Of a stretch of DNA of 64,000 nucleotides, positions 45,426 through 51,246 are shown in pieces; position 1 is the first letter of the stretch; the number at the start of each line of letters is the position of its first letter. A program made the translations under genes and the position numbers. Origin of the DNA: an uncultured Flavobacteriales bacterium (lineage in GTDB: Bacteria; Bacteroidota; Bacteroidia; Flavobacteriales_G; Salibacteraceae). The notes under the pieces are model-generated. The model was not told the origin of the DNA and ran no database searches. It was given only the letters and a program-made list of their open reading frames with translations. The stretch is from the NCBI GenBank assembly GCA_913020435.1, contig CAJVZZ010000006.1, positions 62,001 to 126,000 on the forward strand, read 5' to 3'.

Positions 45426-46151
45426 TTAAGGAGTATAATGTTCAGTGATTTTACCATCATTATTCTTAGTGTAATAAACTGTTGACCTGCTATTTCTATC
45501 TTCTAAATATTTCGCATAGGTATCGGAAAAAGCGACTCGTTCTTCAACGCACTTAACAAAGTTAAAATTTAATTCCATTAGCATTTCAGAAGCTTCTCTT
45601 ACACCATGATTTCCACCACTATATGCGGTAATATAGTCGGCCAATTGATAGTGTTTTACGTATTCAGAAAACGCCACCTTAGCATCAGATCGAACAAAGA
45701 CTCGCACGCCCACTTCCTTTGCAATAGACAGGTCCAAAATATCATCATAAAAAAACGCAATTTCTTCGCTTTTCAGACCACAATCTTCCATTAAATGCTT
45801 GAGCGCTAATTTTTTATCCGTAAAACCAAAGTAAACTTTGTCAAAATGTTCTCTCGCTGCAAAATCTAATGACACCTCATTATTTGCTCCTGTTACAATT
45901 GCACTAATGGGCATCGAGTTTTGCTGTTTTAACCAAGTAGAAAATCGCAACATATTTGTGCCCATCGAATCAATCTCTGAAAACCCTGAGTGATTTCCAC
46001 CGCCTTTATTGCCTTCATTAAAAACACCATCCCAATCAAACAAAATAGCTTTAATGTTCTTTAATTTTTGTGCTAAAACAAAAGGCGGGATTATAAAAAC
46101 CCCGCCTTTTGTTTCAAAAATATGCTGTGTGTGTTCTAAGGAATTATCCAT
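45426..46151 (-). CDS. KdsC-like HAD phosphatase
   Basis: A HAD-superfamily phosphatase of 241 residues. The nucleophile motif is LFDWDGVFNEG, motif II is the threonine in SAIVTGAN, a lysine follows in FTDKKLALKHL, and motif III is FFYDDILDLS. This is the cap-less layout of KdsC, which removes the phosphate from Kdo 8-phosphate. It is longer than E. coli KdsC and the segment after the nucleophile differs, so I call it KdsC-like. Its position 10 bases after the transaldolase-CBS gene and two genes after kdsA supports the role. A strong hairpin (46080-46110) lies inside its first 25 codons. The start is an ATG; no later start precedes the catalytic motif. Confidence 0.72.
   Translation of the reverse strand: MDNSLEHTQHIFETKGGVFIIPPFVLAQKLKNIKAILFDWDGVFNEGNKGGGNHSGFSEIDSMGTNMLRFSTWLKQQNSMPISAIVTGANNEVSLDFAAREHFDKVYFGFTDKKLALKHLMEDCGLKSEEIAFFYDDILDLSIAKEVGVRVFVRSDAKVAFSEYVKHYQLADYITAYSGGNHGVREASEMLMELNFNFVKCVEERVAFSDTYAKYLEDRNSRSTVYYTKNNDGKITEHYTP
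46080..46110. terminator. terminator-like hairpin inside the KdsC-like gene
   Basis: Perfect ten-base arms AAAAGGCGGG (as read at 46080-46089, A-A-A-A with the base before) and CCCGCCTTTT (46101-46110) with an 11-base AT-rich loop. On the minus strand it is followed by GTTTT. It has the form of an intrinsic terminator, but encodes the residues KGGVFIIPPF of the KdsC-like protein. It may act as an attenuator or an RNA-stability element. Confidence 0.5.
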
Positions 46152-46161
46152 AGTTCAAATT

Positions 46162-47172
46162 TTACTTTGCCAAATCTTGAATATCTAGCATTCCAATTGG
46201 TTTACCATTTTCAGTTACCAACAAAGTATCTACTTGAGTAGATTTAAAAAGATCATTTGCGTCGTTTAGTAAAGCACCAGCATCGATAGATTTTGGTGTT
46301 CCATACTCCATGTCCGAAAGTTTCATTCCATGCACTGCATCACCTTTAGATCCAATTAACCGTCTAAGGTCTCCATCAGTAAATACTCCTTTAATATTTC
46401 CACTAGCATCAAGCACTGTTACAGAACCATATCCATATTCAGTCATTTTTAGGATAGCATCAGGAATAGATAAAGACTCAGAAACTGTTGGATTTACGTC
46501 TCTCAACGCAGATTTTACATTATTGGTCATTAACTTTGTGTGTTCAAAAAACTGATCTGTACCTAAAGTAGTAAAGTTATTTTCAGTCAATTGGGTCATT
46601 ACCTTCCAAGGAACAGTACAAACATGAACCCCAGCATTTATAGCATTTCTAATATGCTCTGGGTAACGGACAGATGAGAACATGATTTTCGTATCGTAAC
46701 CATAATAGTTTACAGCTTCAACACATTGACTCACCAATTCTAGAGCATCATGACCTTGATCTTGCAGGCGACCTACTAGAGGACACACATAAGTTGCACC
46801 TGCTTCCATTGCCATATAGGCTTGTTGCAATGTGTACACTAAATGCACATTCACCATGATATCTTGATCTGTAAGAATCTTACAAGCTTTAACCCCTTCT
46901 AAAGAAACTGGAATTTTAAAAACCGAACGATCTTTCTTCAATCCCATTTCTAACTGACGATGAGCTTCAGCAACAATTTCTTCTGCAGTTTGACCTAGTG
47001 CCTCAACTTGAAGTATTGGAACCATATCAGCTAGCTTTAAAATCAAGCCATCAATATCAGTAACACCATCGCGATGCATAAAAGTAGGTGTTGTTGTAAG
47101 TCCGGTTAAGAAGCCTAATTTAAACGCTTCTTCTATCTCATTTATGTTTGCCGAATCTAAATATAATTCCAT
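46162..47172 (-). CDS. transaldolase/fructose-6-phosphate-aldolase-like barrel fused to KdsD-type CBS pair
   Basis: A 336-residue two-part protein. Residues 1-215 align by eye with small aldolases of the FSA/TalC family: D6 in MELYLDSAN and the Schiff-base lysine K86 in VFKIPV are kept. The usual Asn of TTNPS is T28 (TTTPT), the FSA Thr109 position is H110 (VHLVY), and the Tyr131 position is L132 (CPLVGR). Residues about 225-336 are two CBS motifs whose segments GVFTDGDLRRLI and PIGMLDIQDLAK are near copies of those in arabinose-5-phosphate isomerase KdsD. The gene sits between kdsA (31-base gap) and the KdsC-like gene (10-base gap). I infer a role in supplying or gating arabinose 5-phosphate. 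Plain transaldolase is the alternative. Confidence 0.8.
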   Translation of the reverse strand: MELYLDSANINEIEEAFKLGFLTGLTTTPTFMHRDGVTDIDGLILKLADMVPILQVEALGQTAEEIVAEAHRQLEMGLKKDRSVFKIPVSLEGVKACKILTDQDIMVNVHLVYTLQQAYMAMEAGATYVCPLVGRLQDQGHDALELVSQCVEAVNYYGYDTKIMFSSVRYPEHIRNAINAGVHVCTVPWKVMTQLTENNFTTLGTDQFFEHTKLMTNNVKSALRDVNPTVSESLSIPDAILKMTEYGYGSVTVLDASGNIKGVFTDGDLRRLIGSKGDAVHGMKLSDMEYGTPKSIDAGALLNDANDLFKSTQVDTLLVTENGKPIGMLDIQDLAK

Positions 47173-47203: not shown

Positions 47204-48034
47204 TTATCTGTATTGAACTTCTAAATTATGCATTTCAATCAAAGGTTTTAAAAACTCCTCAAGATCGTATACACATAATTGACTTGCTGCATCGCACAGC
47301 GCTTTTTCTGGTTCTGGGTGAGTTTCGATAAAGACACCATCGACTCCAGCCGCTACACCAGCTCTTGCAATGGTTGGTAAAAACTCTCGGTTGCCTCCTT
47401 TTGGATCTGCACTTGGAATTCCATACTTGCGAATAGAATGTGTGATATCAAATACAACTGGATAACCAGGTTGTCTTAAATGATAAAAACTTCTTGGATC
47501 TACAACCAAATCGTTATATCCGAAGGTATAACCTCTTTCGGTTAAAATAATTTGATTATTGCCCGATTCTAAAACTTTTTCTACTGGCTTAATCATATTC
47601 TCTGGAGCTAAAAACTGACCGTGCTTTATATTAACCACTTTGCCTGTTTTTGCCGATTCAACCAACAATTCCGATTGCATACACAAGTATGCTGGAATCT
47701 GTATAACATCAAGCACCTCGCCTGCCGGAGCAGCCTGAGCCGGAGTATGAATATCAGAAAGTATCGTAAAACCAAATTGATCTTTAATCTTCTGAAGTAA
47801 TTTCAACCCTTCGTCTATACCTGGTCCTCTATAGAATTTTAAAGAAGAACGATTATCTTTAACAAATGAAGATTTATAAATGATTTTAATGTCCATGCTC
47901 TCTGAAACTTCTTTTAGTTTCTCAGCAGTTTTCATCATTGTAGACTCATCTTCAATAACACATGGACCCGAGATAAGAAATAGCTCATCAGAACCACAAT
48001 CAATATCCCCAACTTTTACAATTTTACTTGACAT
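47204..48034 (-). CDS. kdsA: 3-deoxy-8-phosphooctulonate synthase
   Basis: KdsA condenses arabinose 5-phosphate with phosphoenolpyruvate to Kdo 8-phosphate, the committed step of the lipid A inner core sugar. The 276-residue barrel shows LISGPCVIEDE, IIYKSSFVKDNRSS, GPGIDEGLKLLQ, ILSDIHTPAQA, VNIKHGQFLAPENM, ILTERGYTFGYNDLVVDPRS, FDITHSIRKYG and FIETHPEPEKALCD. The asparagine in VNIKHGQ rather than cysteine suggests a metal-independent form; this follows from family knowledge and was not tested. It has its own near-consensus promoter and leads the operon kdsA, transaldolase-CBS, KdsC-like, bestrophin. Confidence 0.95.
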   Translation of the reverse strand: MSSKIVKVGDIDCGSDELFLISGPCVIEDESTMMKTAEKLKEVSESMDIKIIYKSSFVKDNRSSLKFYRGPGIDEGLKLLQKIKDQFGFTILSDIHTPAQAAPAGEVLDVIQIPAYLCMQSELLVESAKTGKVVNIKHGQFLAPENMIKPVEKVLESGNNQIILTERGYTFGYNDLVVDPRSFYHLRQPGYPVVFDITHSIRKYGIPSADPKGGNREFLPTIARAGVAAGVDGVFIETHPEPEKALCDAASQLCVYDLEEFLKPLIEMHNLEVQYR

Positions 48035-48117: not shown

Positions 48118-48873
48118 TTATTGCTGTTCTTTTAATAATAATCTCACCTTTTTTAAATCATCAATTGTATCAACTGGAATGGTATCATGATAGGTCAATT
48201 CAACATAAATATCATTTCCATTTTCTATCCAACGGTTTTGCTCTAAGGACTCAACTCGTTCCAATTTAGAACTGGGTAAATTAGCAAACTCTTTTAAAGC
48301 ACTATAACTATAGGCATACAATCCTACGTGCTTAAAGTAAGTATGATGTTCCAACCAATGTGTTTGATGAACCCCTCGGATATGAGGAATAACTGAACGA
48401 CTGAAATACATCGCTCTATTCTTTCTATCAAAGACTACAAAAACTTCACTTTCATTAAATAAATCTTGCACCGATTTAACGGGACTTACTAACGTTGAAA
48501 ATCTGACATCTTGATTATCAAAAGGTTTCAATAACTCGCTTAACTGCTCAGGTTCGAGCATTGGCTCATCACCCTGAACATTTACAATTACATCATATTG
48601 CTCATCTAGCTTCTCAGTAATTCTTTCATATGCCTCCAAACATCTGGTCGTACCATTTTCATGATCTACTGATGTCATTATCACATTTCCGCCAAAGTCG
48701 ATTACTACTTGCTTAATACGTTCGTCATCCGTTGCAACAAAAACAGTTGGAATTGCTTTTACCGTTTGCTCATAAACTCTCTGAATCATTGGTTTACCCA
48801 AAATGTCTACTAATGGTTTACCTTCTAATCTTGAACTTCCAAAACGCGCTGGAATAATAGCTATAGCCTTCAT
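48118..48873 (-). CDS. kdsB: 3-deoxy-manno-octulosonate cytidylyltransferase (CMP-Kdo or CMP-Kdo8N synthetase)
   Basis: A nucleotidyltransferase of 251 residues that activates Kdo with CTP before transfer to lipid A. Motifs: IIPARFGSSRLEGKPLVDI (CTP-binding loop), TDDERIKQVV, the Mg-binding segment VNVQGDEPMLEPEQL, YFSRSVIPHIR, KHVGLYAYSYSALKEF and a final VDTIDDLKKVR. In organisms with KdnA and KdnB the KdsB enzyme can use 8-amino-Kdo; since kdnA and kdnB start on the opposite strand 85 bases away, that is likely here too. It lies upstream of kdsA, in the same direction with an 83-base gap. Confidence 0.94.
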   Translation of the reverse strand: MKAIAIIPARFGSSRLEGKPLVDILGKPMIQRVYEQTVKAIPTVFVATDDERIKQVVIDFGGNVIMTSVDHENGTTRCLEAYERITEKLDEQYDVIVNVQGDEPMLEPEQLSELLKPFDNQDVRFSTLVSPVKSVQDLFNESEVFVVFDRKNRAMYFSRSVIPHIRGVHQTHWLEHHTYFKHVGLYAYSYSALKEFANLPSSKLERVESLEQNRWIENGNDIYVELTYHDTIPVDTIDDLKKVRLLLKEQQ

Positions 48874-48958: not shown

Positions 48959-50155
48959 ATGCCGGGATTAGAACTTTTTGGAGACGAGGAAAGAAAAGAA
49001 GTAATGGACGTTTTAGACTCAAAATGTTTGTTTAGATACAATCATGAGCACATAAGAAATGGTCATTGGAAAGCTAAAGAACTAGAAGCTGAAGTACGGA
49101 ATTTTACTGGCGCAAAGTTCGCGCATGCAGTATCTAGTGGATCAACAGCTGTTGCTTGTGCAATGGCGAGTGCAGGTATTGGTTATGGAGATCATGTTAT
49201 CGTTCCTCCGTTCACTTACATCGCTACTATTGAGGGCGTCATATTTGGTGGAGGTGTTCCTGTTTTTGCAGAAATTGATGAGAACTTGTGTCTTTCAGCT
49301 GCTGGAATTGAAGCTGCAATTACTCCAGAAACAAAAGCAGTTTGCTTGGTACATATGTGCGGTGCAGCTGCTAATATGGATGAAATAATGGAGGTTTGTA
49401 ATAAACATAACCTTGTGCTTATTGAAGATGCAGGTCAAGCTTTAGGAGCTTTTTACAAAGGCACCTCTGTTGGTCTTTTTGGTAAAACTGGTGCTTATTC
49501 TTTCGACTTTTTTAAAATTACTACAGCTGGCGAAGGTGGATTATACGTTACTAATGACGAAGCTTGCTATCGATTAGCTGATTCTTATTCAGATCACGGT
49601 CACGATCACCTTGGTGCAAATCGTGGTATGGAACAGCATCATATTCTTGGATTTAATTACCGTCTGAGTGAATTGCATGCAGCTATTGGTTTGGCTCAAA
49701 TGCGAAAAATAAATACGATACGAGACGTAAATCGTAAAAATAAAAGTCATCTAAAATCTCTTTTAGCGGGCACTCCTGGTCTTTCATTTAGACCAATTCC
49801 GGATGAAGATGGTGACAGTGGAACATTCTTAAACTTCTTCTTACCTAATACAGAAATTGCTCAAAAAGTAATGGCTGAATTTGGAAAAATGGGAATTGGT
49901 GGGTTCAATTATTGGTACACTAACATGTATCATTTCATCAATCAATGGGATCATTTGAAAAATTTAAAATCTGCTGCTCCACTGCATTTACACAAAATGG
50001 ATCTGCCCCAAGATTATAATAATCTAGATTTACCAAAATCTCAAGAGGTTGTTGGTAAACTAATTTCTCTTGGAATTAGCACTCAATGGTCTGAAGAACA
50101 AATGAATGAATTGGCAGTAAATATGAAAACTGCAATCGCAAACGCACAATTATAA
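48959..50155 (+). CDS. kdnA: 8-amino-3,8-dideoxy-manno-octulosonate transaminase (KdnA-like)
   Basis: A DegT/DnrJ/EryC1-type PLP aminotransferase of 398 residues. The start MPGLELFGDEERKEVMDVLD and the following FRYNHEHIRNGHWKAKELE match what I know of KdnA, which transfers an amino group from glutamate to 8-oxo-Kdo. PLP contacts: VSSGSTAVACAMAS, EDAGQALGAFYKG, and the Schiff-base lysine K186 in SFDFFKITTAGEGG. The C-terminal segment FNYRLSELHAAIGLAQM is a family hallmark. The KdnB-like gene follows after 8 bases. Shewanella uses the same pair to make Kdo8N. Other sugar aminotransferases are possible but fit the context less well. Confidence 0.88.
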   Translation: MPGLELFGDEERKEVMDVLDSKCLFRYNHEHIRNGHWKAKELEAEVRNFTGAKFAHAVSSGSTAVACAMASAGIGYGDHVIVPPFTYIATIEGVIFGGGVPVFAEIDENLCLSAAGIEAAITPETKAVCLVHMCGAAANMDEIMEVCNKHNLVLIEDAGQALGAFYKGTSVGLFGKTGAYSFDFFKITTAGEGGLYVTNDEACYRLADSYSDHGHDHLGANRGMEQHHILGFNYRLSELHAAIGLAQMRKINTIRDVNRKNKSHLKSLLAGTPGLSFRPIPDEDGDSGTFLNFFLPNTEIAQKVMAEFGKMGIGGFNYWYTNMYHFINQWDHLKNLKSAAPLHLHKMDLPQDYNNLDLPKSQEVVGKLISLGISTQWSEEQMNELAVNMKTAIANAQL

Positions 50156-50163
50156 TTTCGGAG

Positions 50164-51246
50164 ATGCAACACATCAATTTCAATAACATTGGTAAAGTCT
50201 GCTATGGTCCCGGTAGCTTCTTGCAACTAGGTGAAATCATTGAACCAAGAAGAGTCGACAACAAGGGTTACATGGTCTTTATAGTGGACGATTATTTTGA
50301 GGGCAAAGAATTGGCGAATAAAATACCAGCAAAGCAAAATGACCGCGTTTATTTTATAGATGCTAGTCATGATGAGCCAAAAACATCTCAAATAGATGAA
50401 TTACGTGACGAACTGTTAATGGATCAAGGTCTGCCTTCTGGTATTATTGGAATTGGTGGTGGCAGTATAATGGATATAGCTAAAGCCTTATCGCTTATGG
50501 TCACGAACGAAGGCTCTTCAGTGCTATACCAAGGTTTAAACTTGATCAAAAAGCCTGGTATTTATCATTGTGGTGTTCCTACAATATCAGGAACTGGAGC
50601 TGAATGTTCTATGACCGCAGTTCTTTCTGGACCAGAAAAAAAATTGGGATTAAAGTGTGAGTGGACCGTTTTTAATCAAGTAGTTTTAGATCCAACCTTA
50701 ACGGCATCTGTTCCAAATGACCAGTGGTTTTTCACAGGGATGGATACGTATATTCACTGTATTGAAAGTGCTTCTGGAATCAAATACAATACTTTCTCAA
50801 AAGCATACGGAGATCAGTCTATTGAACTTTGCAAAGCAGTTTTCTTAGGACAAAGTGCTGGTCAAAATCCTGAGAATGACGAGAAATTAATGCTTGCTTC
50901 TTTGTTCGGCGGATTGAGTTTGACTTACTCTGAGGTTGGAGTTTGTCATGCATTATCCTATGGATTAAGTTTTGTTTTTGGAACAAGACATGGTTATGCG
51001 AATTGCCTGGCTTTTAATCACTTGAAAGATGTTTACGGAGATGCTGTTGACGAATTTCATGGAATGCTGGAGCGCTTTAATGTTGAGCTTCCTCAAAACC
51101 TCTCTAAAGATTGGACCGATAAAGAAATTACTGCAATGGCTAAAATTGCAATTCGATTGGAACATATGTGGAACCATGCCTTTGGTCCTGATTGGAAGAG
51201 CCAAGTTTCAATGGAATATATTGAGGGATTGTACCGGAGAATGTAA
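50164..51246 (+). CDS. kdnB: 3-deoxy-manno-octulosonate 8-oxidase (KdnB-like)
   Basis: An iron-type (group III) alcohol dehydrogenase of 360 residues. The NAD site is GIGGGSIMDIAKAL. The metal ligands expected for the family are in the segments DTYIHCIES, VCHALSYGLSFVFG and TRHGYANC. KdnB oxidises the C8 hydroxyl of Kdo to the aldehyde that KdnA then aminates. Eight bases separate it from kdnA, so the pair is translated from one message. The combination of kdnA, kdnB, kdsA and kdsB in one locus is strong support for Kdo8N synthesis. Confidence 0.88.
   Translation: MQHINFNNIGKVCYGPGSFLQLGEIIEPRRVDNKGYMVFIVDDYFEGKELANKIPAKQNDRVYFIDASHDEPKTSQIDELRDELLMDQGLPSGIIGIGGGSIMDIAKALSLMVTNEGSSVLYQGLNLIKKPGIYHCGVPTISGTGAECSMTAVLSGPEKKLGLKCEWTVFNQVVLDPTLTASVPNDQWFFTGMDTYIHCIESASGIKYNTFSKAYGDQSIELCKAVFLGQSAGQNPENDEKLMLASLFGGLSLTYSEVGVCHALSYGLSFVFGTRHGYANCLAFNHLKDVYGDAVDEFHGMLERFNVELPQNLSKDWTDKEITAMAKIAIRLEHMWNHAFGPDWKSQVSMEYIEGLYRRM

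Follow-up and report, generated by a model that had tools for sequence, protein, structure and literature searches.

A transaldolase-family barrel joined to a KdsD-type CBS pair as a candidate aldose-supplying enzyme of the Kdo pathway in Bacteroidota

Which enzyme provides the aldose for 3-deoxy-D-manno-octulosonic acid (Kdo), the endotoxin sugar, in a bacterium whose genome encodes KdsA but apparently no KdsD? This question is raised by a gene in a window of 64,000 nucleotides (the whole stretch of DNA analysed) from an uncultured Flavobacteriales bacterium. The gene (46162..47172, minus strand) encodes a protein of 336 residues, identified from its open reading frame, profile matches and alignments, in which an aldolase barrel of the TAL/FSA type (residues 1-215, 46528..47172; profile matches and alignments) is fused to a KdsD-like CBS pair (residues 217-336, 46165..46524; profile matches). 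It belongs to a tight minus-strand operon with the order kdsB, kdsA, fusion and a KdsC-like haloacid dehalogenase (HAD) phosphatase gene, and starts 32 bp past kdsA and ends 10 bp ahead of the phosphatase gene, the position from which the original prediction had argued. That an aldolase barrel occupies the place of KdsD and serves the Kdo pathway is well supported: by co-occurrence, by gene position, by CBS ancestry and by the viral pairs of barrel and kdsA. The fusion quite probably fills the aldose-supply step of this pathway, and we lean towards a transaldolase-family member that would act as a Schiff-base aldolase and supply a pentose phosphate for Kdo instead of the SIS-type KdsD.

The Pfam TAL_FSA profile matches residues 3-220 (E 1.5e-34) and the CBS profile residues 227-273, and the protein possesses the transaldolase/FSA barrel fold and Schiff-base lysine that characterise PF00923. 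The barrel is 33-37% identical to transaldolases. In an AlphaFold model, a check proposed with the original prediction (mean pLDDT 83.5, pTM 0.56), the barrel resembles transaldolase structures with a TM-score of about 0.87 on the target, and CBS-like secondary structure follows downstream. Residues D6, E57, K86, N108, R135, S167 and R169 are kept and invariant, and changes relative to the family are found at T28, H110, C130, L132 and F165-S166. The first four of these changes are invariant in 14 fusions and three viral barrels, as against N, T, S and F in 13 housekeeping transaldolases from related genomes. The donor-side Asn28, Thr110 and Phe/Tyr132 of the transaldolase/FSA superfamily are thus replaced by T, H and L in all fusions aligned, so that open reading frame, Pfam and alignment all agree with the barrel first described, in which D6 and K86 were kept, T28, H110 and L132 changed and a CBS pair attached. 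Compared with the FSA/TalC family (PF00923, TIGR00875), the fusion is alike in fold, Lys86, Asp6 and acceptor-phosphate residues, but differs in the altered positions just named, in its CBS tail and in its score against the FSA equivalog TIGR00875 (166.5 bits, under the curated cut-off of 245.95).

The tail has a different affinity. The NCBIfam kpsF profile (TIGR00393) matches the fusion at residues 217-329 only (E 5e-16), over profile positions 155-267, which are its CBS part; the SIS isomerase domain is not matched. Within the loci collected for this study, a profile of the fusion CBS pair detects 12 KdsD proteins at 46-72 bits and IMPDH at 33 bits, and by this measure the nearest relatives of the tail among those loci are the CBS tails of KdsD. 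The likeness to KdsD noted at the outset is therefore real, but the segments are not nearly identical throughout as had been claimed: identity is about 30%, with a TDGDLRR motif in common. Relative to KdsD/KpsF/GutQ (SIS plus CBS), the fusion is alike in its CBS pair, its likely pathway step and its place beside kdsA, and the two are mostly mutually exclusive, but an unrelated Schiff-base TIM barrel is present instead of the SIS domain.

The source genome is 98.4% complete, and a genome-wide search for KdsD and GutQ, as the original prediction had proposed, found neither; the SIS proteins encoded there are GlmS, MurQ, GmhA and one that is Pgi/Pmi-like. A survey of the order covered 42 genomes, 25 of them with kdsA (most genomes in our surveys are metagenome-assembled; one, G037, was left out of the order counts as both its fusion and its kdsA are incomplete and lie at contig ends). 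The fusion is found in 17 of the 25, KdsD in seven and a SIS-only version in one (G006, gene order kdsB-SIS-kdsA), with zero overlap; none of the 42 has a full fusion without kdsA, or fusion and KdsD together. Such non-overlap would arise once in C(25,8), or about 9e-7, a hand calculation that ignores kinship. The swap is observed within a single genus, where kdsA adjoins kdsD in G031 and the fusion in G030. When the phylum was sampled evenly (218 good genomes), 161 genomes had kdsA, 157 had KdsD and four had the fusion, namely 4 of 6 genomes with kdsA but no KdsD and 0 of 155 with both. A pattern scan of named genomes returned at least 464 related loci. The 80 best, which are the closest matches and not an even sample, are all full-length fusions, almost all from groups labelled Bacteroidota and including the cultured Thermonema rossianum. 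Judged from these genomes, the fusion is confined to those with kdsA, mostly without KdsD.

Further evidence comes from viruses. Three IMG/VR contigs encode a barrel of 213 residues that is 60-64% identical to that of the fusion and has its active-site residues, but no CBS pair. All three (L106, L107/L190 and L189) also carry kdsA, and in L189 and L190 the stop of the barrel gene overlaps the kdsA start. The KdsA proteins of these contigs contain the canonical KANR motif, plus CRQ or CKQ; since these partners are canonical, the barrel product is arguably a phosphorylated pentose, most simply arabinose 5-phosphate (A5P). With the viral barrel as query, an annotated collection of phages yielded ordinary talC-type relatives only, at under 39% identity. 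On L106 an open reading frame of 101 residues, HAD-like, overlaps the end of kdsA, and two of the three contigs have SPASM radical SAM genes in the vicinity.

How might such a barrel make A5P? The kept Arg and Ser presumably bind the acceptor phosphate and the changed positions are, we take it, on the donor side, as though dihydroxyacetone were no longer the donor. The stereochemistry of an aldol route from glycolaldehyde and glyceraldehyde 3-phosphate (G3P) fits A5P. To our knowledge, A5P-forming aldolase chemistry has so far been known from test tubes and engineered cells only. Escherichia coli FSA forms A5P in vitro from glycolaldehyde and G3P (PMC6298115, PMC9947464), and formation of A5P by aldol chemistry is for this reason our best guess for the fusion, with about an even chance of being right. 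In this scheme Lys86 would form an imine with the two-carbon unit, glycolaldehyde, which would add to G3P to give D-arabinose 5-phosphate, and the CBS pair could tune the reaction, a committed step, in response to an end product, for example CMP-Kdo. KdsA would then join the barrel product with phosphoenolpyruvate (PEP), KdsB would activate the resulting sugar and, in many fusion genomes, KdnA and KdnB would form its 8-amino version.

The KdsA partner is itself unusual (47204..48034, minus strand; profile match and alignment). In alignments, the KdsA proteins of fusion genomes differ from those of KdsD genomes by the fixed changes A60D (KANR to KDNR), R119M, K138H, Q202R and P204Y. R119 aligns with Aquifex R106, where PDB 1t8x has Gly; R106 presumably reaches over the subunit interface to bind the phosphate of A5P. 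All 40 kdsA genes within 6 kb of a fusion encode the variant motifs KDNR, CMQ and KHGQF, as do 30 of 30 kdsA genes from another set of genomes with the fusion, most of these genes being unlinked to it (three are linked copies already counted in the first set); KdsA from KdsD genomes has KANR, RQ and KK in 8 of 8. The window KdsA is accordingly of the variant type, without the canonical KANRS motif and an R106 equivalent, and the variants form one group in a tree, with weak support (0.62). The idea that K138H touches the PEP-phosphate lysine, which we take to be the first K of KK, was dropped, as that residue is kept in the alignment. The adjoining phosphatase (45426..46151, minus strand; profile match and alignment) is also divergent: it scores 59.8 bits against KdsC, far under the curated cut-off of 208, and all 75 of these HAD proteins have another residue in place of E. 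coli KdsC Arg86. Among the 40 loci with no kdsA nearby, 28 have the HAD gene next to the fusion, and it is also beside kdsA-fusion in most linked loci.

Several observations weigh against an A5P-making aldolase in place of KdsD. A standard KdsD is kept in five of 50 of the named fusion genomes (L221-L225), which rules out strict exclusion across the phylum; beyond the order, exclusion is strong but not absolute. In three of these five genomes KdsD adjoins a mannose-1-phosphate guanylyltransferase-like gene, and the two that were searched genome-wide for KdsA possess the variant only. The fusion is thus tied more strictly to variant KdsA than to absence of KdsD, since every KdsA read from fusion genomes is of this type. 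In the phylum sample, G064 and G241 have kdsA while neither KdsD nor the fusion was found, leaving an unexplained A5P source or an assembly gap. The H110 and L132 substitutions make the chemistry of the barrel hard to predict, and no source of glycolaldehyde was identified. Since variant KdsA has no counterpart of Aquifex R106, its substrate may not be A5P, or the barrel product, or the form in which it is used, may differ. The view that the barrel replaces the SIS domain of KdsD in the Kdo pathway nevertheless holds for architecture and position and is otherwise well supported; the five genomes that keep KdsD are the exception to it.

With no source of glycolaldehyde in evidence, an alternative to be taken seriously is that ribose 5-phosphate is epimerised on Lys86, although we consider it unlikely. 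The Lys86 imine would be inverted at C2, either by deprotonation with H110 as base or by retro-aldol cleavage and re-addition, to give A5P without free glycolaldehyde, which would also account for the new invariant His110. AraD is an aldolase-derived epimerase, although we know of no 2-epimerase in the transaldolase family. L132 presumably aligns with F178 of TalB. The TalB variant F178Y forms ribose 5-phosphate besides A5P (PMC9947464). The changes in KdsA and the loss of Arg86 in the HAD protein, together with its linkage to the fusion, would also permit a route that is possible but not likely, in which the barrel makes A5P, the HAD protein strips the phosphate and variant KdsA forms Kdo directly from free D-arabinose and PEP. 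All variant sequences read lack the R106 equivalent and have Asp at the A47 position, the HAD gene stays with the fusion where kdsA is distant, and the viral KdsA proteins paired with the barrel retain Arg or Lys at the R106 position. However, the HAD gene also lies where a normal KdsC would be in most linked loci, the KdsA equivalents of Arg49 and Ser50 are kept, new R202/K203 could bind phosphate instead, and the argument relies on presumed roles for both R106 and KdsC Arg86. A complete second Kdo pathway, with CBS-regulated A5P formation from two- and three-carbon units, HAD action first, free arabinose as substrate of altered KdsA and no Kdo 8-phosphate, seems doubtful.

The concerted change of barrel donor side, KdsA aldose site and HAD protein might instead indicate a different sugar phosphate and an operon that makes a stereoisomer or analogue of Kdo; we regard this as improbable, as kdsB, KdnA/KdnB and a WaaA-like gene of ordinary type (eight loci) accompany the fusion and the viral KdsA partners are canonical. 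It is highly unlikely that the protein serves central metabolism as an ordinary transaldolase or FSA and carries its CBS domains incidentally. Its identity to transaldolases and the presence of pgk upstream in 13 of the best 80 loci would fit, but five active-site positions are invariantly different, the fusion is strictly tied to kdsA, and a separate ordinary transaldolase of 222 residues is encoded on another contig, so the fusion is not the sole family member in the source genome. We attach equally little probability to a sensor without catalytic activity that would regulate KdsA: a CBS pair is a regulatory module, but the seven kept barrel residues are invariant and the viral barrels pair with kdsA without any CBS domain.

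If the favoured aldolase reading is correct, a large part of the Bacteroidota would begin the Kdo pathway with an unrelated enzyme that captured the regulatory domain of KdsD, viruses would carry the catalytic part alone, and genomes with kdsA but no KdsD would be explained. A5P-making aldolase chemistry would gain a physiological role, and inhibitors directed at KdsD or KdsA should not be assumed to be active across the phylum. A full-text literature search, of open-access scope with most subscription papers outside it, found no publication on the fusion.

Upstream of kdsA the operon contains kdsB, encoding CMP-Kdo synthetase (48118..48873, minus strand; profile match). Divergent to it are genes for a KdnA-like 8-amino-Kdo transaminase (48959..50155, plus strand; PDB 5k8b, E 3e-132) and a KdnB-like Kdo 8-oxidase (50164..51246, plus strand; PDB 5k8c, E 1e-112). 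As homologues this close to the KdnA and KdnB of Shewanella adjoin the operon, the lineage probably makes 8-amino-Kdo; in Shewanella itself we are not aware of an aldolase fusion accompanying these genes. Within the order KdnB is present in 13 of 17 fusion genomes and in 0 of 8 KdsD genomes; it is thus nested within the fusion set, but 8-amino-Kdo genes are not a requirement for the fusion. Where pgk precedes the fusion (L117, L124, L127, L133, L136, L141, L144, L146, L151, L152, L156, L161 and L169), it lies 46-177 bp upstream.
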